Below, piece by piece: positions 18,551-30,562 of a stretch of DNA of 62,635 nucleotides (position 1 is its first letter; each line of letters opens with the position of its first letter). A program made the position numbers and the translations under genes. This DNA comes from Methylobacter sp. (GTDB lineage: Bacteria; Pseudomonadota; Gammaproteobacteria; Methylococcales; Methylomonadaceae): positions 1 through 62,635 of the forward strand of contig JAUXXQ010000149.1 in the NCBI GenBank assembly GCA_030684815.1, in the 5' to 3' direction. The notes beneath the pieces were generated by a model. That model was given only the letters and a program-made list of their open reading frames with translations. It did not search any database and was not told the DNA's origin.

Positions 18551-19711
18551 TTAGCCCGGAAAAGGCGGGCGTTTGATAATGGCCTTAAACATATTATTTT
18601 CCCGGTCATCAATAAATTCAATGTCAGGATATGCCGCCAGCGCCCGCACAATGCCGCTACCCAAACCGCGATAAGGTAAGATACGGCTGGCAAACGACAC
18701 CAAAATCGGGTTGCGGATATTGGAATTGCCCAGCTTGATCTTGGCAACGGTAAGATTATTGGGCAAATGTCCGGGACTGATAATTTCTATCCTGTCCCTA
18801 AAAATCAATAGACGGATGGTTGCCGACACAAAGTAATCGCGGTGAATCAAGGCATTAGTCAGCAATTCTTCAAAGACGATCAGGGGGATTTCCAGCTCCC
18901 CGAGTGAATTTACGCTTTGACCCGCCTGTAGGTGATGCAGATTGCGTGTGATAAACCCCAGCGATTCCTTAAACACGTTCAGCATTTTTCCGCTCATATC
19001 CTGGCTATCCAGATAAATGCTGGTGTTGCTGTCGCTACCCGGAAAGACAACGGCTTTAACGATGAAAATCGGCAGATAAAAGCTGGGATTGCGGGTAAAC
19101 AGCAAAGCGCCCGCCACATTAAAAACGCCATCTTGCATCAAGTTCATGTTTTCCAACAAAGTCGATAATGGCATGTCGAGTTTATCCAGTGCGGTGTTGA
19201 AGTGCTTTTGCAGAAACGCATCAAAATAGTCTTTATCTAACTCATTGATACCCAAGCCTTTGGCGGGTATTTCATCGCCATGCACCAAGTTGGCGGCCTG
19301 ATACATGCGCTGAATTTCCTCGCGTGCGCTAACTTTTCGTTTATCCGAACCGCTTTTAACCCAGATCAAACCGTTGTTGTCCATGTACGGTTTGCTGATG
19401 CCTTGCGGTATCTGCACCACCATCACCAGACCGTTTGCTGTGGCAATGTTTTCGGTTTGTGGGTTGATGGGCGGACGGACTGATTGTGACGCCGCGTTAG
19501 CAACCAGCTGGTTTAAACGTCCGATGTCTTCTCGCGTCAGTCCGGCGTATGAACCGTCGTCATTGACCCCGATCAGGATAATTCCTCCCGAACTGTTGCA
19601 AAAAGCCACCATTTCAGCGGCCAAGGCATTAACATTGGTTACGTTGGACTTGAATTGGTGTTTCCCGTCTTCACCCCGGTCAATGATCGCCTGGAACTCT
19701 GTGTTGTTCAT
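18551..19711 (-). CDS. AlbA_2 (Schlafen-type) putative DNA-binding / ATPase-domain protein
   Basis: The N-terminal ~125 residues match the AlbA_2 fold: GEDGKHQFKSNV, ALAAEMVAFCNSSGGIILIGV, DGSYAGL, then IPQGISKPYMDNNGLIWVKSGSDKR. The C-terminal half has FEELLTNALIHRDYF and GSGIVRAL, resembling the degenerate GHKL ATPase (HATPase_c_4) of this architecture. Start at 19711 (MNNTEFQ) is supported by GGAG six bases upstream. Such proteins are accessory, often near phage-defence or toxin genes, and called transcriptional regulators without proof. Here it sits between MFS-ssb and uvrA, an order normally uninterrupted. Confidence 0.85.
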   Translation of the reverse strand: MNNTEFQAIIDRGEDGKHQFKSNVTNVNALAAEMVAFCNSSGGIILIGVNDDGSYAGLTREDIGRLNQLVANAASQSVRPPINPQTENIATANGLVMVVQIPQGISKPYMDNNGLIWVKSGSDKRKVSAREEIQRMYQAANLVHGDEIPAKGLGINELDKDYFDAFLQKHFNTALDKLDMPLSTLLENMNLMQDGVFNVAGALLFTRNPSFYLPIFIVKAVVFPGSDSNTSIYLDSQDMSGKMLNVFKESLGFITRNLHHLQAGQSVNSLGELEIPLIVFEELLTNALIHRDYFVSATIRLLIFRDRIEIISPGHLPNNLTVAKIKLGNSNIRNPILVSFASRILPYRGLGSGIVRALAAYPDIEFIDDRENNMFKAIIKRPPFPG

Positions 19712-19831
19712 TTTCATCTCCATTTGGTCATCCGGCAGTACATTAGCCGTGAATCAGCAGAAAACTTGCGCTGAGCTTAATGGCGTGCATTATAACAAGC
19801 TTTATTTGTCGGATTCGCTCATTTCCGCTGA

Positions 19832-20243: not shown

Positions 20244-23072
20244 ATGGATACGATCAGCATTCGTGGTGCCAGAACGCATAACCTGAAAAATATAGACCTT
20301 GATTTGCCCAGAGACACACTCATCGTGATCACCGGGCTGTCCGGTTCGGGCAAATCTTCGCTGGCTTTTGATACGATTTATGCCGAAGGCCAGCGCCGCT
20401 ATGTGGAATCGCTGTCCACTTATGCCCGGCAGTTTTTGGCTATCATGGAAAAGCCCGATGTCGACCATATCGAAGGCTTGTCGCCCGCCATTTCCATCGA
20501 GCAAAAATCCACTTCGCACAACCCGCGTTCCACCGTCGGCACCATCACCGAAATCTACGATTATTTGCGCCTGCTCTATGCCCGCGCCGGTACGCCGCGC
20601 TGCCCCGAACATGGCGTGTCGCTGGAAGCGCAAACTATCAGTCAAATGGTTGATCATGTGTTGTCGCAGCCGCAAGATCAGCGCTGGATGCTGCTGGCGC
20701 CGGTGATTAACGAGCGTAAAGGTGAACATATACAATTGCTCGATGATTTACGCGCACAGGGTTTTATCCGCGCCCGCATCGACGGCACGGTTTACGATCT
20801 GGACGAGCCGCCGCTGCTGGACTTAAAAAAGAAACATACCATCGAGGTCATCGTCGACCGCTTTAAAATCCGCGACGACATCGCCTTAAGGCTGGCCGAA
20901 TCGTTTGAGACCGCTTTGCGTATCGCCGACGGCATCGCCATTGCCGCTTGTATTGACGACGGCGATTTCACCGAACTGCTGTTTTCCGAACGCTACGCCT
21001 GCCCGCATTGCGGCTACTCGCTGTCCGAACTGGAACCGCGCATTTTCTCGTTCAACAATCCTAAAGGCGCGTGTCATAGTTGCGACGGCTTGGGCGTGCG
21101 CCAGCATTTTGATCCCGAGCTGATTATCCATAATCCCGACATCAGCCTTGCCGGTGGCGCGATTCGCGGCTGGGATAGGCGCAATGCTTATTATTACCAA
21201 ATCATTTGTGCGCTGGCCAAGCACTATAACTTCGACCCGGAAGCGCCGTTTTCGGAGCTGTCCAAAATCCATCAGGATATTATCCTGTACGGCAGCGACC
21301 ATGAAGAAATTGAATTCACCTTCATCACCGGCACCGGTTCCGCCAAGAAGAAACGCCATCCTTTTGAAGGCATTATCGCCAATATGGAGCGGCGTTATCA
21401 CGAAACCGATTCGCCGATGGTGCGCGACGAGCTGGCCAAATATCTGTCGCAAAAAACCTGCAATGTTTGCGAAGGCGCAAGGCTGAATGTCTCGGCCAGA
21501 AACGTGTTTGTCGAGGATTTGCCGCTGCACCACCTGACCCGTTTCCCTATCCGTAAATCGCTGGACTTTTTTGCCCAGCTTCAACTGACCGGCAAACGCG
21601 GCGAAGTCGCGGTAAAAATCGTCAAGGAAATTCAGGAGCGGCTGGAGTTTTTGGTCAATGTCGGTCTCGATTATTTGACGCTGGATCGCAGCGCAGACAC
21701 GCTGTCCGGCGGCGAAGCACAGCGCATACGCCTTGCCAGCCAAATCGGCGCGGGTTTGGTCGGGGTGATGTATGTGCTCGATGAGCCGTCGATTGGCCTG
21801 CATCAGCGCGACAACCAGCGCCTGTTAAACACCTTGTTCCGTCTGCGCGATTTGGGCAATACCGTGATCGTGGTCGAGCATGACGAAGATGCCATTCGCT
21901 CGGCGCAGCACATCGTCGACATCGGCCCTGGCGCCGGTGTGCATGGTGGGCGCATCATCGCCCAAGGCACATTGGACGATATTCTTAATAATAAGGACTC
22001 GTTAACCGGCCAATATTTGTCGGGGAAAATCGGCATCGCCGTGCCGGAAAGATTGACGCCAGCCAATAAAGACAAGCAAATCGTCATCCGCAATGCCCAC
22101 GGCAATAACCTGAAAAATGTCGACATTAAATTTCCTATCGGCTTGCTGACCTGCGTCACCGGCGTGTCCGGTTCCGGCAAATCGACGCTGATTAACGATA
22201 CTTTATATTGCCATGCGGCGCGTCTCATCAACCGCGCCGGCGTCATTCCCGCGCCCTGCGATGCGATTGAAGGGCTGGAACATTTCGATAAAGTCGTCGA
22301 TATAGACCAAAGCCCGATTGGCCGCACACCGCGCTCGAATCCGGCCACGTATACCGGTTTGTTTACGCCGATACGCGAATTATTTTCAGCGACGCCGGAA
22401 GCGCGTTCACGCGGTTATACGCCCGGCCGCTTTAGTTTTAATGTCAAGGGCGGCCGCTGCGAAGCCTGCAAAGGCGATGGCGTGATTAAAGTCGAAATGC
22501 ACTTTTTGCCGGATATTTTCGTCCATTGCGACAATTGCGCCGGTAAGCGTTATAACCGCGAAACGCTGGAAATCCGCTACAAAGGCAAAGCCATCAACGA
22601 AGTGCTGGACATGACCGTTGAAGATGCCGCCGCGTTTTTCAGTGCAGTGCCGGTGCTGGCGAAGAAATTACAGACCTTGGTTGAAGTCGGCTTGAGCTAC
22701 ATCACGCTGGGGCAGAATGCGACCACGCTGTCCGGCGGCGAAGCGCAACGGGTCAAACTCGCCAAGGAATTGTCCAAACGCGACACCGGCAAGACGCTGT
22801 ATATATTGGATGAACCGACTACCGGCTTGCACTTCCATGACATCAAGCAATTGCTGAATGTGCTGCACACGTTGCGCGACCACGGCAACACTGTCATCGT
22901 CATCGAGCATAATCTGGATGTGATTAAAACCGCCGACTGGATTATCGACATGGGCCCGGAAGGCGGCGACGGCGGCGGCACACTGGTTGCAGAAGGTACG
23001 CCGAAACAGGTTTCCGAAAATAAGGCTTCGCATACCGGGATGTATTTGCAGCGTTTTTTTGAGCCGCTCTAA
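20244..23072 (+). CDS. uvrA: excinuclease ABC subunit A
   Basis: UvrA detects helix-distorting lesions for nucleotide excision repair. Two ABC ATPase modules are present: Walker [15 protein letters not shown] near 30 and [14 protein letters not shown] near 645; signatures [12 protein letters not shown] and [12 protein letters not shown]; and zinc motifs CPHCGYS...CHSCDG and [16 protein letters not shown]...[10 protein letters not shown]. Length 942 is standard. No CTGT-N8-ACAG LexA-type box is seen upstream. Its TAA shares a base with the ATG of the next gene, linking it to the corrinoid cluster. Confidence 0.98.
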
Positions 23073-24667
23073 TGGACGCTTTACCCTTTATCACCGCCCT
23101 AAGCCCACAAGGCGAATTTCAACTGCCGTTCCAGCCAGGCGCCACCTTGCGCGACATTTTAATCGCCGGTGGTTTGGGCTTGCGCTCTGCTTGTGCCGGC
23201 AATGCCGTGTGCGGGCAATGCCAGGTTCGGGTTCAAGAAAGCGCCACGATTCCTTTTACGTCAGGTGAAAAACGAAGGCTTTCCCCTGCACGGTTAAACG
23301 CCGGTTGGCGTCTGGCTTGCCAAATTACGCCGCTGGCTCCGTTGCATGCCAGCATTAAAACGCTGGCACCAGCCCAGCATTGGCGGGCGTTGCGCGATGA
23401 TGAATACAGCTTTATAAGGCAACCGCCAGCGCTGCGGCCCAGTATGATGCGCTATGGAGTGGCGGTTGATTTAGGCACGACCCATATTCGTTTGACCTTG
23501 TGGGATGTGCGTGCTGGAAAACGGTTGGCCGGACGCATCGGCATTAACCCGCAGGCGAGTTATGGCGCTGATATTCTTAGCCGATTAACCGAGGCTGCGC
23601 GCTCCCGGCAAGTTGCAGACGCCATTGCCGTACTGGCTACGACTGCGATTGCTGAAGCGCTGCGTGATATGGCCTCGGCACTAGAAATCAATTTGCATGA
23701 TATAGGCGAAGTGGTGATCGTCGGCAATACCGCGATGATGAGTTTGCTCTCGGGTAAAAATACCGCGTTGTTATTGAACCCTGACTATTGGACGCAATGT
23801 TTTTCTATACAGCCGGATGATCCGGCTTTATTCAATAAGGCATGGGCATTATCCGAGCAAGCGCGGATTCGATTTATTACGCCGCTGGGCGGATTCATCG
23901 GTTCGGATCTGTTGGCCGGCATTATCGCTACGCGCTTGACGAAACAACCTGCCGGTTCGTTGTTGATTGATTTTGGCACCAATTCAGAAATGGCTTTGTG
24001 GGACGGTAAAAGGTTAAGGCTGACCGCTACAGCAGGCGGCCCGGCTTTTGAAGGCTGCGGTATCAGTTGCGGCATGTCGGCCGAAGCGGGCGCAATTTAT
24101 CGTTTAAGCTCCGGCCATGACTCCACTTTTAAACTCGGTGTGTTAGGCAAGGCTAAAGCCAAAGGCTTATGCGGCTCAGGCTTGGTCGATGCGGTGGCGT
24201 GGCTGCGGCATCAAGGCAAGCTGGATAAATTAGGACGCTATCCGGAGCGGGCTAACGAGGGTTTTGTCCTATCCGAAAGCGGTGGGCGGATTGTGTTAAA
24301 AGCGGCTGATATTGATGTTTTCCAACGCGCCAAAGCCTCGATTGGCGCTGGCGTGTGCTGGCTTTGTGAGCAAGCCGGGCTAGCGGTTTCAGATTTGGCT
24401 CGGGTTTATGCCTGCGGCGCATTTGGCGGTTTGCTCGATGTCAGCAACGCACAAGCAATAGGTTTATTACCGCCAGTGCCGGTTGAGAAGGTACAGCTTG
24501 AGCCTAATAGTGCGCTGGCAGGCTGCGAAGAATTATTGCTTTCAGCAGAAGCCGAGCGCCTTGTAGCGGCGGTGCTGGCTGTTGCTGAACTCTATAACAT
24601 GGGCGAAGACAGTGCGTTTGAAAACCTGTTTGTGGAAAATCTTTATCTCCAAGCGATGCGGACATAG
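23072..24667 (+). CDS. corrinoid-activating [2Fe-2S] ASKHA-domain protein (RACo-like, DUF4445)
   Basis: RACo-type proteins use electrons and ATP to reduce cob(II)alamin in corrinoid methyl carriers back to the active Co(I) state. The N-terminal ferredoxin domain has the plant-type spacing C41-x5-C47-x2-C50...C83. A linker follows, then an actin-like ATPase with phosphate loops DLGTT (133-137) and DFGTN (300-304) and GPAFEGCGISCGMSAEAGA. Length 531 is shorter than the ~630 of methanogen or acetogen RACo, through a compact linker. The start codon overlaps the uvrA stop (TAATG). A repeat block separates it from the corrinoid protein gene, but function links the two. Confidence 0.9.
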   Translation: MDALPFITALSPQGEFQLPFQPGATLRDILIAGGLGLRSACAGNAVCGQCQVRVQESATIPFTSGEKRRLSPARLNAGWRLACQITPLAPLHASIKTLAPAQHWRALRDDEYSFIRQPPALRPSMMRYGVAVDLGTTHIRLTLWDVRAGKRLAGRIGINPQASYGADILSRLTEAARSRQVADAIAVLATTAIAEALRDMASALEINLHDIGEVVIVGNTAMMSLLSGKNTALLLNPDYWTQCFSIQPDDPALFNKAWALSEQARIRFITPLGGFIGSDLLAGIIATRLTKQPAGSLLIDFGTNSEMALWDGKRLRLTATAGGPAFEGCGISCGMSAEAGAIYRLSSGHDSTFKLGVLGKAKAKGLCGSGLVDAVAWLRHQGKLDKLGRYPERANEGFVLSESGGRIVLKAADIDVFQRAKASIGAGVCWLCEQAGLAVSDLARVYACGAFGGLLDVSNAQAIGLLPPVPVEKVQLEPNSALAGCEELLLSAEAERLVAAVLAVAELYNMGEDSAFENLFVENLYLQAMRT

Positions 24668-24711
24668 AATAAGTTCCATTTGTAACTATTCAGCATCTAA
24701 AAATGATTAAA

Positions 24712-24908
24712 TAGAACACGGATGAAACGGATAATCACTGATTAAAAGCACGACATATTTTAAAAAACCGTGTAAATCCGCCCTATCTGTACCATCCGTG
24801 TTCTATTACCTTTTTCACTGAATGGTTATAATCACTGATTAAAAGCACGACATATTTAAAAAAAACCGTGTAAATCCGTCTTATCTGTGCCATCCGTGTT
24901 CTATTACC
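24712..24908. repeat. ATCCGTGTTCTATT intergenic repeats, two direct copies with inverted ends
   Basis: Two ~79-bp direct copies (24732-24810 and 24829-24908) share AATCACTGATTAAAAGCACG, then AACCGTGTAAATCCG and CATCCGTGTTCTATTACC. TAGAACACGGATG near 24714 is the complement of CATCCGTGTTCTA, so copy 1 can form a long hairpin. A relative in reverse orientation lies at 49392-49489. The block separates the activator gene from the corrinoid protein gene and may carry its promoter. Confidence 0.85.
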
Positions 24909-24920
24909 AGTTACCATTTA

Positions 24921-24926
24921 AAGGAG
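24921..24926 (+). promoter_or_regulatory. ribosome binding site fixing the GTG start of the corrinoid protein
   Basis: AAGGAG lies eight bases before GTG 24935. It decides against the upstream ATG at 24887, which lies inside the repeat block. Confidence 0.8.
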
Positions 24927-24934
24927 CATTCACC

Positions 24935-25618
24935 GTGTTGGATGATGTTATCAAAGCCTACAATGAGGCTGTTTTAGACACCGATAGGACGCGTGCCTTG
25001 CAAATCGTCTCGGATGCGGTCGCGCAAGGTGTCAGTCCCGAGGACATTGTGTTCAATGTGGTGATTCCAGGGCTTGACCTGATGGTTAAGGCGCTCAGCG
25101 AAGGTTTCGACACCAATCTTGCCCAGCATTTTATGACCTCGCAAATTGCGGCCAATGTCACCGAAAAAATGCTCGAATCGTTTCAGTCGCCACCGGAAAT
25201 TATCGGCCATGTGGTCATAGGTTCTGCCGTGGGCGATTTACATACGCTAGGCAAACGCATTGTGATTGGCTGTCTTAAAGCGCAAATGATTGAAGTGATT
25301 GATTTGGGCGTAAATGTCCCGGCTGAAAGGTTCGTCAGCGAAGCGTTGGCACATAATGCGCAAGTGATTGGCGTATCGGCGATGATGGTGCATACCGCAC
25401 GTGGCGAAAACGGCGCGATTAAAGTACGCCGCTTGCTTCAGGAACAAGGTCTGGAACATAAAATCAAGCTGGTTGTCGGCGGTGCGCCGTTTCGCTACGA
25501 CCCTGAGTTATATAAAGTGGTGCAAGCGGATGCCTGGGCTGAAAATGGCGTGTCGGCACTTAAAGTTATTATGGATTGCATTCAGGAGGTAAAAAACAAT
25601 GACCACGAGCATGGATAG
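24935..25618 (+). CDS. corrinoid (B12-binding) methyl-carrier protein
   Basis: The product (227 residues, GTG start) has an N-terminal helical cap (about 1-85) of the methionine-synthase B12-binding type and a Rossmann B12 domain. The lower-ligand motif DxHxxG is intact as D101-L-H103-T-L-G106, followed by VIGVSAMMVHTARGE (SxL-equivalent) and VVGGAPFR (GG motif). Such MtaC/MtbC/MtvC-like proteins shuttle a methyl group between a substrate methyltransferase and an acceptor enzyme. Its 3' end overlaps the UroD-like gene by 20 bases, so they are translationally coupled. Confidence 0.92.
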   Translation: MLDDVIKAYNEAVLDTDRTRALQIVSDAVAQGVSPEDIVFNVVIPGLDLMVKALSEGFDTNLAQHFMTSQIAANVTEKMLESFQSPPEIIGHVVIGSAVGDLHTLGKRIVIGCLKAQMIEVIDLGVNVPAERFVSEALAHNAQVIGVSAMMVHTARGENGAIKVRRLLQEQGLEHKIKLVVGGAPFRYDPELYKVVQADAWAENGVSALKVIMDCIQEVKNNDHEHG

Positions 25619-26639
25619 GCTGGCAGCGGCTGCCAACGGTAAGATTATCGATCACATCCCGGTATTTTGTAATTTGCTCGATCAGGGCGCGCGCGAGCTG
25701 GGGTTGTCTATCGAAGACTATTTTTCCAAAGGCGAGCATGTTGCCGAAGCGCAAATCAAAATGCAGAAAAAATTCGGCCACGATAATGTCTGGAGCCTTT
25801 TTTATGTCGGCAAAGAGGCAGAATTATTCGGCTGCAAAAAAATATGTTACGCGACCGACGGGCCGCCTAATGTCGAAGATTACATCATTCAGAATTACGC
25901 TGATATTGAGTGTCTGCAAGTGCCGGATGACCTCAGCGCGCATCCTAAATTTGCCGAAACCGCAAAATGCCTGCAGATTTTAAAACGCGAAGTAGGCGGA
26001 AAAGTGCCTATTTGCGCTTATCTCACCGCCTCTATGTCACTGCCCGCAATTCTAATGGGCATGGAAAATTGGATGGAATTGCTGATGATAGGCCCTGTTG
26101 AGGTGCGTGATTTGCTGTTGGAAAAATGCTCGGATTTTTTTCGCAAAGAAATCGAAGCCTACCGCAACGCAGGCGCTGATATTCTGGTCTATGCCGACCC
26201 TTACGGTTCGACCGACATTATCCCCATGAAGTTGTTCAAAGACTTGTCGCTCAAATGGATGAAGCGCGATTTGGAGCCCGGCGGCCTAAACGGCGTGGTT
26301 TATTATGTCGGCGGGGCGAGGCTCAACAGCGTTGCCGATGAGGTGATCCGCGAGGTGGGCATACACGCTTATTATCCCGGCCCGCTGGATGATGTGACAG
26401 AATCCATGCGCATTATCAATGGCCGCGCCTTGTGCGCCGGGGTGATCAATGACATCAAGCTGCTCGACTGGACTCCCGGCCAGGTGCGCGAGGAAGTGCG
26501 GCGCATTGTGCAAGGGGGGTTGCAGGTGAACAATAAGTTCTTTTTCGGTACGGTAGTGATGCCTTACGGTATCCCGGAAGAAAATATTAAAGCCATGATT
26601 TTGGCGGCAAAAGAATTCGGACGCACGACTGATGGCTAA
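25599..26639 (+). CDS. UroD-fold corrinoid-dependent methyltransferase
   Basis: This 346-residue protein belongs to the uroporphyrinogen decarboxylase superfamily, where corrinoid-linked members (MtaA, MtbA, CmuA N-part, MtvA-like) move methyl groups to or from a corrinoid protein. Context argues for methyl transfer rather than haem synthesis. DPYGSTDIIP (200-209) and IPEENIKAMILAAKEFG are superfamily segments. The zinc site of thiol methyltransferases (HxC and a later Cys) is not seen: the positions read YYVGG (235-239) and GTVVMPYG (317-324). It is probably not a coenzyme M-type enzyme; a substrate-side demethylase or unusual acceptor enzyme is possible. It overlaps both neighbours. Confidence 0.87.
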   Translation: MTTSMDRLAAAANGKIIDHIPVFCNLLDQGARELGLSIEDYFSKGEHVAEAQIKMQKKFGHDNVWSLFYVGKEAELFGCKKICYATDGPPNVEDYIIQNYADIECLQVPDDLSAHPKFAETAKCLQILKREVGGKVPICAYLTASMSLPAILMGMENWMELLMIGPVEVRDLLLEKCSDFFRKEIEAYRNAGADILVYADPYGSTDIIPMKLFKDLSLKWMKRDLEPGGLNGVVYYVGGARLNSVADEVIREVGIHAYYPGPLDDVTESMRIINGRALCAGVINDIKLLDWTPGQVREEVRRIVQGGLQVNNKFFFGTVVMPYGIPEENIKAMILAAKEFGRTTDG

Positions 26640-27213
26640 AAACCGTCTGTTGCTGGGTTGTGGCATTTTGGCAAAAGAAGTGCGTTATCTGATTGTAAAA
26701 AATGGCTGGCCTTTAGACACAGACTTCCTTGATTCGTCATTACATGTAAACTTTGAAAAATTGGCTACTGAGCTAGGAAAAGGGTTGGCGCGCAATCAGC
26801 ACCGGGATATTATCGTGTTCTACGGTTGTTGCCATCCCCGTATAGAACAGATGCTAACAGACGCGCATACGTTTCGCACCGAAGGGCAAAACTGTGTGGA
26901 AATGTTGCTGGGGCGGGCGCTGTTTATGGACAAGCTCAATGCCGGCGCTTTTTTCTTGCTGGAAGATTGGGCACTGCGTTGGGATGATGCGATTGCCGCA
27001 ACGTTTGGCAGCAATCCCGAAATCGTGCGCGAGATTTTCCAACTGTCCAACCAGTCGCTACTGTGTTTGCGCACGCCGTGTTCCGATGATTTTGAGCAAC
27101 AGGCATTGGCTGTCAGCGAAAAAGTGGGTCTGCCGGTAGAGTGGATGGATGTAGGGCTAGAACATTTAGAAAAGGTTCTGCAGCAGGCTGTCACAACTAA
27201 AATTAAGCCATGA
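26632..27213 (+). CDS. DUF1638 protein of the corrinoid cluster
   Basis: The 193-residue product starts inside the end of the methyltransferase gene (8-base overlap). It shows the Cys pattern of DUF1638: C10 (LLLGCGILAKE), C66-C67 (FYGCCHPR) and C88 (GQNCVEMLLG, with E90). DUF1638 genes recur beside corrinoid methyltransferases in methanogens and anaerobic bacteria, but their role is unproven; the invariant Cys suggest metal or methyl-thiolate chemistry. It could serve as an acceptor protein or a metal site for the UroD partner, which lacks classical zinc ligands. That is inference. Confidence 0.85.
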   Translation: MAKNRLLLGCGILAKEVRYLIVKNGWPLDTDFLDSSLHVNFEKLATELGKGLARNQHRDIIVFYGCCHPRIEQMLTDAHTFRTEGQNCVEMLLGRALFMDKLNAGAFFLLEDWALRWDDAIAATFGSNPEIVREIFQLSNQSLLCLRTPCSDDFEQQALAVSEKVGLPVEWMDVGLEHLEKVLQQAVTTKIKP

Positions 27214-27251: not shown

Positions 27252-29501
27252 ATGATGAAACAAACAGAACAAACCTTACGCGATAACGAAATGCGCTTGC
27301 GCACCTTGGCCGATAATCTGCCGGATAGTTATCTTTATGAATTCACTTACCAAGACGGTAAGCCGCATTTTATCTATCTCAGCTCTGGCGTTAAAAAATT
27401 ACACGGCATTAAAGCGGAAGAGGCGCTTCAGGATGCGTCGTTATTATTTAAGCAAATAGACCCCGACCTCTTACCCGCTTATCTTGAAGCCGAACAAGTC
27501 AGTCAGCGCGATATGACCGATTTCTCGATGGATTTGCAGTTTCAGTGTTCGCCGAGGGAATGGCGCTGGATCCGGATGCACTCCCATCCGCGCAAACATG
27601 ATAACGGTCAAATCATTTGGGATGGCATCGCAACCGACATTACCGACCACCACTTGTTTCAAGTTGAGATTAACCGCTTGGCGCAAGCAATAGAACAAAA
27701 TCCTATCGGCATACTGATCACCGATACACAAGGCGTACCTTGCTTTACCAATCAGGCTTACACGCATATTACCGGTTATCAGTTCGCAGACATTTATGCA
27801 AAACCGTTGCGCGAGTTAATGCCCACTGAAATGACCGATACCGAGTTTGACCAACTCAACGCATCGTTGGCAATAGGCAAGCCTTGGGCGGGCATTTTAA
27901 GAAACCGCCATAAAAAAGGGCAATGCTATTGGGAGCAACTTAACGTGTCGCCGGTTTATGACGACACCGGCGTAGCCAGTCATTACCTTTATTTATGTGC
28001 CGACATCACCGAAAACAAAAACGCTGAAGAAGAATTGCGGCGTTACAAAAATCATTTGGAAGAACAAATACAAGAACGCACCACTGAGTTGGTATTGGCG
28101 CGCGACGCCGCTGAGGCGGCAAATCGCGCCAAGAGCGTATTTCTGGCTAATATGAGCCACGAACTGCGCACACCGCTGAATGCTATCCTTGGTTTTTCTA
28201 ACCTGATGCGCAAAGATGACAGCATTTCCGAAACCCAATTGATTAACCTCAACATCATTAACCGCAGCGGCGAACACTTGCTGACGCTGATTAACGAAGT
28301 GTTGGAAATGGCAAAAATCGAAGCGGGACGGGTGCAGTTGGAGAACCAGGCTTTTGATTTGGGCGGCATGATGCGCGATGTGATTGACATGATGCAGATC
28401 CGCGCCCAAGAAAAAGGGCTGCGCCTGATACTTGACCAATCCTCCGAATTCCCGCGTTATATTGAAGGGGACGAAGCGCGCTTACGTCAGGTGTTAATTA
28501 ATCTAGTCGGCAATGCGGTCAAATTTACTAAACAAGGCGGCATTACCCTGCGTTTAGGGGTCAGAAAAAATGCCACTGCGCATTTGTTAATCGAAGTTGA
28601 AGACACGGGAACGGGGATTGCTGTTGAAGACCAGGCACTTATTTTTGAGCCCTTCATCCAGGTGGGCAAGTATGGCGTCAATCAGGGCTCAGGGCTTGGC
28701 TTAGCCATTACCCGCCAATTTGTACACTTAATGGGCGGCATACTGAGTGTTAACAGCACCTTGGGCAAAGGCTCGTCCTTTCTGGTTGATGTGCCGTTGG
28801 TCGTGGCCAATCCAGCCGATATAGCCAATTCTGACGACATCACTAAAGGCAATGTAGTAGGCTTGGCCGCTAACCAACCCACCTACCGTATTCTTATCGT
28901 TGATGACCAACTGGAAAATCAGTTATTGCTGAGCAAGTTGATGGAGATAATTAACTTTCCGATAAAAACCGCCGACAATGGCGCGCAAGCCATTGAGCTA
29001 TTTCAAAGTTGGCAGCCACAGCTGATCTTCATGGATAGCCGGATGCCAGTGATGGGGGGGATAGAAGCCAGTCGGCGCATTCGCCAGTTACCCGGAGGTA
29101 AGGACGTGAAAATAGTCGCCGTTACCGCCTCTATTTTCATGGAACAACGGGATGAATTGCTCAAGGCCGGGATGGATGATTTTATCCGCAAACCCTATCG
29201 TTTCAATGACATTTATGACAGCTTGAGCCGGTTGCTCGGTGTACAATACGCCATCGAGTCAATGCCCGACGAGATAGTGGATGAAGGCCCCGTACTCACT
29301 TCGCCCCTGCTGGGCGTCTTGCCTTTGGCTTTGCGCATTGAGTTGAGAGAAGCCTTGGAAAGTTTGGACAGCGAGCAGATTGCAACGGTTATTGCCCGTA
29401 TTAAACCGATTGATGTGAAATTGTATAAGACACTGAACCGCCTAGCAGAAAATTTTGATTATCCTTGCATCTTAAAAGCATTAGGCGATGTTCAAGCCTG
29501 A
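27252..29501 (+). CDS. soluble PAS-PAS hybrid histidine kinase
   Basis: Order of domains: PAS 1 (about 15-135), PAS 2 (about 143-258), coiled coil (260-292), HisKA with phospho-acceptor H303 in [10 protein letters not shown], HATPase (DTGTGIAVEDQALIFEPF, GSGLGLAIT), and a C-terminal REC with LIFMDSRMPVMGG. No membrane segment is present, so an internal cue (redox, ligand or cofactor) is likely. The start is 38 bases after the DUF1638 stop on the same strand, and the next gene is an HD-GYP regulator, making an adjacent sensor-output pair. The short repeat CTTTTTCAGGAAATCGCC lies in the gap. Confidence 0.92.
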   Translation: MMKQTEQTLRDNEMRLRTLADNLPDSYLYEFTYQDGKPHFIYLSSGVKKLHGIKAEEALQDASLLFKQIDPDLLPAYLEAEQVSQRDMTDFSMDLQFQCSPREWRWIRMHSHPRKHDNGQIIWDGIATDITDHHLFQVEINRLAQAIEQNPIGILITDTQGVPCFTNQAYTHITGYQFADIYAKPLRELMPTEMTDTEFDQLNASLAIGKPWAGILRNRHKKGQCYWEQLNVSPVYDDTGVASHYLYLCADITENKNAEEELRRYKNHLEEQIQERTTELVLARDAAEAANRAKSVFLANMSHELRTPLNAILGFSNLMRKDDSISETQLINLNIINRSGEHLLTLINEVLEMAKIEAGRVQLENQAFDLGGMMRDVIDMMQIRAQEKGLRLILDQSSEFPRYIEGDEARLRQVLINLVGNAVKFTKQGGITLRLGVRKNATAHLLIEVEDTGTGIAVEDQALIFEPFIQVGKYGVNQGSGLGLAITRQFVHLMGGILSVNSTLGKGSSFLVDVPLVVANPADIANSDDITKGNVVGLAANQPTYRILIVDDQLENQLLLSKLMEIINFPIKTADNGAQAIELFQSWQPQLIFMDSRMPVMGGIEASRRIRQLPGGKDVKIVAVTASIFMEQRDELLKAGMDDFIRKPYRFNDIYDSLSRLLGVQYAIESMPDEIVDEGPVLTSPLLGVLPLALRIELREALESLDSEQIATVIARIKPIDVKLYKTLNRLAENFDYPCILKALGDVQA

Positions 29502-29536: not shown

Positions 29537-30562
29537 ATGACCGTAAAAGGGCATATTCTTGCAGTCGATGACACACCTGCGTCGCTAAAATTATTGACTG
29601 ACATTCTAAAAGAAGAAGGTTATGAAGTACGCTCAGCCATTAGCGGGGAACTCGCGTTGCATTCAGCTATGCGCAACCCGCCTGACTTGGTCTTGCTTGA
29701 TATTCGGATGCCGGAAATGGATGGCTATGAAGTGTGTAGGCAGCTCAAAGCCAATATTGAAACACGCGATGTGCCGGTGATTTTTGTCAGCGCCGTATCA
29801 GCCACCGATGAAAAAGTGTTGGGTTTTGAAATAGGCGCGGTGGATTTTGTCACTAAACCTTATCAGCGCAGCGAGTTGCTGGCGAGGGTGCGCACCCATC
29901 TGGAACTGAATAACCTACGGCACAACTTAAAAGATTTGGTTATTGAGCGCAGTAGCGAGTTGATTGAAAGTGAAAGAAAACTCCGGATGAGCCTGGTTGA
30001 CTCCATTTCAGCCATTGCCTCCGTGGTCGAAATGCGCGACCCCTACACCGCAGGCCATCAGCGCCGCGTTGCCCAAATTGCCGTTGCCATCAGCAAACAA
30101 TTGCAGCTACCCGAGGATAGGATTGAAGGGGTGCATTTGGCCAGCGTGGTGCATGATGTGGGCAAGATAAAAGTGCCCGCAGAAATACTCAGTAAACCTG
30201 GGCGGCTCACCATCAATGAATTCAATCTGATTAAGGAACATTCACAGACCGGCCACGACATCCTCAAATCTATCGATTATCCCTGGGAAATTGCGGAAAT
30301 TGTTTTGCAGCATCATGAGCGCCTCGATGGCTCGGGTTATCCCAATGGCTTAAAAGGCGATGAAATTTTGCTGGAAGCGCAAATTATTGCGGTTGCCGAT
30401 GTTGTCGAGTCAATGATGTCACACCGCCCTTATCGCCCAGGACTGGGCGTCGATGCCGCATTAGAAGAAATTTTCTTGCACCGTGGCGGTTATTTTAATG
30501 CCGATGCCGTTGACATTTGCATTAAGCTTTTCCGAGAACACGGGTTTAGGCCATCGGCTTGA
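29537..30562 (+). CDS. REC-HD-GYP response regulator (c-di-GMP phosphodiesterase)
   Basis: The receiver domain has the acidic pair D11-D12, phospho-acceptor D55 (LLDIRMPEMDG) and K107. The HD-GYP domain has HDVGK (206-210) and HHERLDGSGYP (259-269), the metal-binding and GYP motifs needed for c-di-GMP hydrolysis. Length 341 matches RpfG-type proteins. It follows the hybrid kinase by 35 bases and is its likely partner, so the kinase probably lowers c-di-GMP when active. Confidence 0.93.
   Translation: MTVKGHILAVDDTPASLKLLTDILKEEGYEVRSAISGELALHSAMRNPPDLVLLDIRMPEMDGYEVCRQLKANIETRDVPVIFVSAVSATDEKVLGFEIGAVDFVTKPYQRSELLARVRTHLELNNLRHNLKDLVIERSSELIESERKLRMSLVDSISAIASVVEMRDPYTAGHQRRVAQIAVAISKQLQLPEDRIEGVHLASVVHDVGKIKVPAEILSKPGRLTINEFNLIKEHSQTGHDILKSIDYPWEIAEIVLQHHERLDGSGYPNGLKGDEILLEAQIIAVADVVESMMSHRPYRPGLGVDAALEEIFLHRGGYFNADAVDICIKLFREHGFRPSA

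Follow-up and report, generated by a model that had tools for sequence, protein, structure and literature searches.

Corrinoid methyltransferase systems such as the O-demethylases and CdmBCA share a small set of parts: a corrinoid protein with a DxHxxG motif, a UroD-fold enzyme and a RACo-type activator, all encoded in clustered genes. The same families occur together in a contig of Methylobacter sp. (JAUXXQ010000149.1, assembly GCA_030684815.1), whose 62,635 nucleotides (nt), the whole stretch of DNA analysed, are called the window here. In contrast to the known systems, the module in the window contains no second methyltransferase (MT2), leads into signalling genes and encodes a UroD-fold protein in which the zinc ligands of MtaA have been replaced. 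Methanosarcina has sensor kinases tied to corrinoid methyltransferases, namely MsmS and RdmS. These archaeal kinases have no H-box, according to the part of PMC11784639 used here, whereas the kinase of the module has both an H-box and a HisKA domain and the module is found in bacteria of 12 phyla.

Other described systems resemble the module in part. Kountz and Balskus described the type 1 mlp clusters, in which UroD, corrinoid and activator genes are presented without signalling genes (PMC10418091, in extract). According to the same extract, these clusters encode two or three Mlps, show no conserved synteny and belong to obligate anaerobes, mostly Firmicutes; the main text contains no occurrence of 'histidine kinase', 'signal', 'sensor' or 'DUF1638'. 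In the aerobes Phaeobacter and Ruegeria, a RamA-like protein and a DUF1638 protein accompany a corrinoid protein. Price et al. assigned this pair to B12 reactivation for the split methionine synthase of Phaeobacter and, in the portion of the paper drawn on, left DUF1638 without a specific role proposal (PMC5764234). In a study of glycine betaine demethylation the pair was more abundant on N-osmolytes (PMC12478193, in extract). Neither extract mentions a UroD-fold partner or a kinase. CarH-type photoreceptors likewise use a B12 domain as sensory element, and fusions of photoreceptor B12 domains to GAF, diguanylate cyclase and further domains are known (PMC11796333, in extract). A description of a linkage between corrinoid and signalling genes was not found in the open-licence literature, which was covered in part; subscription papers lay outside the scope of this search.

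The locus in the window is composed of the following genes.

23072..24667, plus strand: RACo/RamA-type reductive activator of corrinoid proteins (Pfam Fer2, Raco_middle and RACo_C_ter; PF14574, 196 bits)
24935..25618, plus strand: corrinoid protein with a B12-binding cap, a B12-binding domain (83.5 bits) and DxHxxG
25599..26639, plus strand: UroD-fold methyltransferase, nearest to the MtaA/CmuA branch (PF01208, 149 bits)
26632..27213, plus strand: DUF1638 protein (PF07796, 107 bits)
27252..29501, plus strand: hybrid histidine kinase, PAS-PAS-HisKA-HATPase_c-REC, H-box present (Pfam)
29537..30562, plus strand: REC-HD-GYP response regulator, a predicted phosphodiesterase of cyclic di-GMP (c-di-GMP) (Pfam HD_5, 125 bits; Response_reg, 102 bits)

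The first-pass annotation of this DNA had described the first four genes as a compact corrinoid methyl-transfer module. The family models confirm all four assignments and support their reading as a corrinoid methyl-transfer set. The last three genes indeed overlap, by 20 nt (corrinoid/UroD) and 8 nt (UroD/DUF1638), and the DxHxxG motif reported as intact (D102/H104/G107) is present in 80 of 80 aligned rows. As a four-gene unit, the description is real but incomplete: the kinase follows DUF1638 on the same strand after 38 nt, and the REC-HD-GYP gene follows the kinase after another 35 nt. The kinase possesses the H-box histidine, the HATPase_c domain and the receiver domain of a two-component protein, and the translation of the REC-HD-GYP gene carries the motif HHERLDGSGYP.

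The same arrangement recurs in distant hosts. A scan of GTDB species genomes yielded 375 relatives of the UroD protein, the best 80 of which were kept as named loci (51-99% identity). Their hosts represent 12 phyla, judged from record titles, with 10 tree rows left without assignment. In 79 of these 80 loci UroD has the corrinoid gene as its neighbour, the exception (L104) having only 286 nt before UroD, and DUF1638 is present in 62. The expectation that the genes stay together elsewhere is thereby borne out, the set being found together in nearly every relative examined, far more often than chance would allow. Downstream, the plus-strand frames of the 80 neighbourhoods were scanned with hidden Markov models (HMMs), and a same-strand signalling frame was found in 77 loci. 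The distance is at most 700 nt in 70 loci and 813-1076 nt, as counted to the first recognised domain, in six more; in the 77th (L081) the next open reading frame (ORF), which is cut, encodes ETR1_N-PAS. Two further contigs (L084 and L149) end 756 and 413 nt on, too soon to judge. The 76 HMM-scanned frames comprise 60 histidine kinases, three GGDEF proteins, one HD-GYP protein and 12 frames with GAF/PAS domains only, seven of which are cut by contig ends. Within the same loci, a signalling gene follows 21 of 366 genes that belong neither to the module nor to signalling. This control is conservative, since 187 of the 670 non-core ORFs are themselves signalling genes. The linkage to signalling is thus near-constant, a strong fact that any account of the module genes must explain.

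A comparison with relatives' genomes, as the first-pass annotation had recommended, was made in 237 genomes of the host's family, 50 of which contain the UroD gene (E<=1e-40). For 20 family loci of 10-20 kb plus the window, the ORFs were clustered. A same-strand kinase comes next in 21 of 21, always with HisKA and HATPase_c and with REC in 16. One signalling cluster spans all 21 loci and also includes GGDEF, EAL and HD-GYP proteins; besides the module and signalling clusters, no ORF cluster is present in more than three. In seven further family loci (L068-L074) DUF1638 is followed by a GAF-domain kinase without exception, and in six of them a REC-PAS-GGDEF-EAL gene comes next. A REC-HD-GYP gene, checked with Pfam, adjoins the module in L040 and L041. 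A class-wide sample of 369 genomes, searched for UroD at the same threshold, gave six matching genomes, one being the source genome itself and another a member of the family. Among the other four, a GAF-domain kinase directly follows DUF1638 in L063, and kinases directly follow UroD in L065 and L066 (one genome) and in L067; the fourth genome holds L064, which differs in this respect (see below).

The link to signalling extends to the level of single domains. A conserved domain of roughly 180 residues is shared by the next signalling frames of 66 of the 80 named loci. Its resemblance to GAF is faint in Pfam, where 13 of 38 members match GAF_2 at E<=0.1, the best of them at 4e-5. Its AlphaFold2 model (mean pLDDT 85) matches the GAF domain of PDE5A at 8e-7 in Foldseek, among 114 matches at E<=0.001. 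This domain is carried by kinases, by GGDEF or GGDEF-EAL proteins (L097, L143, L154) and by an HD-GYP protein (L111), so that the input domain is constant while the output domain varies. In the 237 family genomes the domain (E<=1e-15) was detected in 49, namely in 47 of the 50 with UroD and in 2 of the 187 without. The corresponding Fisher p of 2e-43 ignores kinship and hence is not a probability. The three genomes with UroD and without the domain (G000, G041, G183) are of the window type with PAS kinases, and in the two with the converse pattern (G170, G177) a DUF1638 gene adjoins the domain. All 50 places of the domain in the family share a contig with a UroD or DUF1638 place, within about 3 kb. 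Across 50 loci, pairwise distances of UroD correlate with those of the GAF-fold domain as strongly as with those of the corrinoid protein (0.81 each), and at 0.63 with those of DUF1638.

In some relatives DUF1638 is part of the kinase itself. It is fused to the front of the GAF-kinase in L092 and L094 (98 and 93 bits; records titled Geobacter and Trichlorobacter). In a distant UroD branch (L065, L066, L067 and L075; 28-32% identity to the window), which is also kinase-linked, the kinase behind UroD carries an N-terminal DUF1638 match of 32.2 bits in L075 and 27.3 bits in L067. The matches in L065 (25.3 bits) and L066 (22.6 bits) are weaker and fall below the cut-off of 27. Where DUF1638 and the signalling gene are separate, their open frames overlap in 29 of 41 pairs, taking the starts of the longest ORFs. 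The AlphaFold2 model of the window's protein is a Rossmann-like alpha/beta fold (pLDDT 93.5), and Cys10, Glu16, His38, Cys67, His68 and Cys88 are invariant among 46 aligned sequences. In a Foldseek comparison of this model with the PDB, nothing was found at E<=0.001 (best E 1.2e-3, TM about 0.3-0.4), and a sequence search of the PDB with DUF1638 and with the GAF-fold domain gave nothing under E 0.1. Chance adjacency in kinase-rich genomes was considered as a source of the linkage and is ruled out by the within-locus control, the 237-genome profile and the fusions.

Two side observations concern these proteins. In L065, corrinoid-UroD pairs occur twice in tandem. The top DUF1638 match of the family search (G018:C321:2326-2829, 148 bits) lies in a genome without the UroD type of the module, where it perhaps has a Phaeobacter-like role.

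Directly established are the anatomy of the locus, the conservation of its linkage, the fusions and the fact that the output domains change. The constant corrinoid-UroD pair, the constant input domain, the changing outputs, the DUF1638-kinase fusions and the missing acceptor enzyme make a signalling input the most economical account. It is therefore proposed, with a probability of roughly 0.58, that the module serves as the input to a two-component system, whose output in the window is a c-di-GMP enzyme. Judged from its family, RACo would maintain the cobalt of the corrinoid protein as reactive Co(I), and the UroD-fold enzyme would shuttle a methyl group between the corrinoid and a small molecule. 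The signal may then lie in whether the corrinoid is methylated or in its redox state, because the module brings no dedicated folate enzyme that accepts the methyl group. This state could be read by contact, by DUF1638 and/or by the N-terminus of the protein encoded next (a GAF-fold domain in most loci, PAS domains in the window), as gene order, fusions and co-inheritance suggest. From its domains, the kinase is predicted to pass phosphate to its own REC domain and, in the window, to REC-HD-GYP, which would change the level of c-di-GMP.

Several observations weigh against this proposal. Most generally, linkage alone cannot separate a sensing input from regulation of the module. RACo adjoins the module in only 40 of the 80 named loci; of the 40 genomes without an adjacent RACo, 26 were tested, and 16 of these have a RACo match and 10 have none. 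The RACo-less genomes include all four Bacteroidota tested, and many of the tested genomes are metagenome-assembled genomes (MAGs). DUF1638 was not found in 18 of the 80 loci, 16 of which have UroD followed directly by a GAF protein, so that DUF1638 cannot be an obligatory part. In the window itself, the kinase is without the dedicated GAF-fold domain. Five uncut loci (L087, L095, L098, L103 and L120) show just GAF/PAS domains in the next frame, and L098 was counted via a 73-residue GAF remnant. On the short contig of L086, PAS-GGDEF, REC and histidine kinase genes are on the opposite strand only. In L064 (UroD 55% identity) all four genes are present, but a PF03618 protein and not a signalling gene comes directly after them, and a PAS/GAF protein is encoded on the opposite strand. 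The sampling also sets limits: with the 80 loci being the best of 375, more distant relatives are poorly represented, and at least 8 of the 80 appear to come from genomes already in the earlier-sampled set. Finally, only 23 of the 80 loci have an ORF coding for a GGDEF, EAL or HD-GYP domain no farther than 6 kb from UroD (17 of 52 among loci with 6 kb on both sides). This count does not support a c-di-GMP output for most loci, and such an output is not general; a c-di-GMP gene near the module is found in the window and in several methanotroph and Gallionellaceae relatives.

Apart from its place in the count, L098 (11630-12600) displays a decayed-looking GAF gene, then an ORF that by eye resembles a PhnD-like binding protein, and then a kinase.

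A wider version of the proposal is held more tentatively, at somewhat less than even odds. It would make the module a corrinoid chemosensor of 12 phyla: a methylated small molecule would be demethylated onto a corrinoid protein dedicated to this task, and the kinase would be set by the methylation or redox state of the cobalt, as read via DUF1638 and/or the dedicated GAF or PAS domain; in the window and roughly one in four relatives the output would be c-di-GMP. What would be new is the assembly; its component families were already known. If the wider version is true, methyl transfer to cobalt would be a previously unknown input chemistry for signal transduction and a new class of stimulus for two-component and c-di-GMP signalling. 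A reaction of methanogenesis and acetogenesis would then serve sensing in many bacteria, and not (only) feeding. In a 2022 census of c-di-GMP stimuli, a word search of the main text does not return corrinoid, cobalamin or vitamin B12 (PMC8846402). DUF1638 would also gain a role, and it would become clear why aerobes like this methanotroph have RACo/corrinoid/UroD sets that lack an acceptor enzyme. The proposal is testable in hosts that are not titled as MAGs, namely Methylobacter tundripaludum SV96 (L124), Candidatus Methylobacter oryzae KRF1 (L121) and Mariprofundus sp. KV (L103).

The alternative that survives best, although unlikely, is a catabolic or assimilatory demethylation, in which methyl groups of a methoxy-aromatic, a methyl halide or a methylated amine or sulfur compound would pass to folate and the kinase would control expression or the response to the substrate. 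All three of the corrinoid protein, the activator and the UroD enzyme look functional in their sequences. The kinase outputs in most relatives could be transcriptional; one sigma-54-type regulator is encoded in L091. The nearest models score under their cut-offs: the best NCBIfam model of the corrinoid protein is that of methyltransferase corrinoid proteins (96.8 bits, cut-off 215.3), and that of the UroD protein is TIGR01463 mtaA_cmuA (105.8 bits, cut-off 235.4). The latter further differs from MtaA and CmuA in its metal site. The zinc ligands of MtaA, which we take to be HxC...C, are absent: the aligned residues are Tyr235 (97.5% of 80 rows), residue 237, which is Cys in 81% of rows and Val in the window, and Thr318 (96%), an assignment that depends on these assumed ligand identities. 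This replacement argues against an MtaA-like handling of a thiol acceptor. Five cysteines of the UroD protein are kept at 96% or more in the same alignment of the window and 79 homologues. A zinc-free site is compatible with demethylation, as CdmB, also of the UroD fold, transfers the methyl group from chloromethane without zinc (PMC13222342, in extract). The ties of MsmS and RdmS to corrinoid methyltransferases, for which PMC11784639 (in extract) and general background both stand, offer a precedent for a kinase beside such enzymes.

The search for a methyl acceptor speaks against demethylation. It covered the source genome alone (4.29 Mb, 235 contigs, 99.25% complete), which carries pmoA, in agreement with the methanotrophic host inferred at first pass. 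The module itself contains no MT2 gene for folate or coenzyme M. In the source genome, no match to the MTTB family was found, and only two frames exceed the cut-off of Pterin_bind: a FolP-like frame of 291 amino acids (C94) and MetH (C141). The set thus appears to be without an enzyme that hands the methyl group to folate in this genome. A hidden substrate methyltransferase was rejected as a candidate on the same searches. In addition, the module has an input domain of its own, DUF1638 occurs fused to kinases, and hosts as different as Chloroflexi, Bacteroidetes and Geobacteraceae fit no obvious single one-carbon diet. The stand-alone demethylation feeding folate that the first-pass annotation had entertained is not supported, for want of an acceptor candidate or MTTB and with signalling genes in nearly all relatives. 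Its conclusion that the UroD protein is not HemE stands, as judged from scores: no hemE model was reported, and a separate HemE-like gene elsewhere in the source genome reaches 477 bits against PF01208, compared to 149 bits. HemE identity was rejected accordingly.

It is improbable, but conceivable from the gene order, that the module methylates or demethylates the kinase and so forms an adaptation unit, a corrinoid counterpart of CheR/CheB. The overlapping open frames and the co-inheritance of the GAF domain with UroD would suit such a unit, and a REC-CheB gene lies nearby in L116. A service of RACo and DUF1638 in methionine synthesis is very improbable. In Phaeobacter, methionine rescues mutants of both genes (PMC5764234, in extract). 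The source genome, however, encodes MetH unsplit, in one frame of about 1240 amino acids with B12-binding and pterin-binding matches, its homocysteine and reactivation domains lying outside this check. The module moreover owns a corrinoid protein and a UroD enzyme, and UroD occurs in only 50 of the 237 family genomes, unlike a housekeeping gene. A light sensor acting through a photolabile methyl-cobalt bond, as an analogue of CarH, is equally remote despite the fusions of photoreceptor B12 domains mentioned above, as the CarH cap motif, which we take to be Wx9EH, occurs in 0 of 80 corrinoid proteins (this being the form compared; the full published signature is GxxW, EH, GxxH, GxxxP). Record titles place several hosts in groundwater or sediment. 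Unlike CarH, the corrinoid protein is of the methyltransferase type and accompanied by a methyltransferase and often an activator.

To return to the module as a signalling input, the clade of the window illustrates how its sensor part is exchanged. In the UroD tree the window belongs to a clade of 10 rows (SH-aLRT 98) with three Methylococcaceae-type rows, apart from the type of Methylobacter tundripaludum. After two Methylococcaceae copies, the next seven records (81-85% identity) are a mix without methanotroph titles: Gallionellaceae, Gallionellales, Nitrosomonadales, Methylobacillus, Proteobacteria and Gammaproteobacteria. With clade mates beyond Methylococcaceae, the module is no methanotroph speciality, and lateral transfer of the window-type module is likely from the tree. 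In this clade a specific N-terminal PAS domain replaces the GAF domain; over the N-terminal 140 amino acids, the window kinase shares 46-94% identity with the kinase behind the module in eight clade loci. A predicted ethylene-binding domain, ETR1_N, starts the sensor in six of the seven rows of the non-methanotroph subclade (L077, L078, L079, L081, L082 and L083; not in L080). The window's kinase is without it, and three ETR1_N matches occur elsewhere in the source genome (C87, C43 and C29). The corrinoid and UroD proteins form a single frame in eight loci, seven of which are in the window's clade. Viral copies were not confirmed in IMG/VR with a single query.

The activator at the front of the module was also assigned correctly at first pass. 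It consists of an N-terminal [2Fe-2S] domain (Cys41/47/50/83) and an ASKHA ATPase, both recovered as Pfam domains, and each of the four cysteines is kept in 92.5% of a 40-row alignment of the window and named-locus homologues. The protein matches PDB entries 3zyy (5e-52) and 4c1n (2e-46) and scores 242 bits against NCBIfam AcsV, below the model cut-off of 800. RACo_C_ter has one match only across the source genome, which is the RACo of the module. Its gene begins at the final base of the uvrA stop codon (23072). The module may have been inserted straight behind uvrA in the lineage of the window; L035 has the same order.

A gap of 267 nt parts the RACo gene from the corrinoid gene and forms a feature of its own.

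24668..24934, no strand: spacer with direct repeats and inverted arms (repeat analysis)

The direct repeats measure 49 nt (94% identical, spacing 98) and 37 nt (97% identical, spacing 97), and the inverted arms 24-25 nt. The spacer is possibly a small mobile element or one resembling repetitive extragenic palindromic (REP) sequences, to judge by this repeat pattern; a 46-base pattern of the first repeat copy matched only itself within the window at up to three mismatches. Scans of the DNA for sigma-70 promoters and terminators gave no excess over shuffles. Behind the spacer, the best start of the corrinoid gene is the GTG at 24935, preceded by a Shine-Dalgarno-like AAAGGAG at 24920. Upstream of uvrA, a protein with Schlafen/AlbA_2 and HATPase_c_4 domains (RecG-C-like) is encoded at 18551-19723 of the window.

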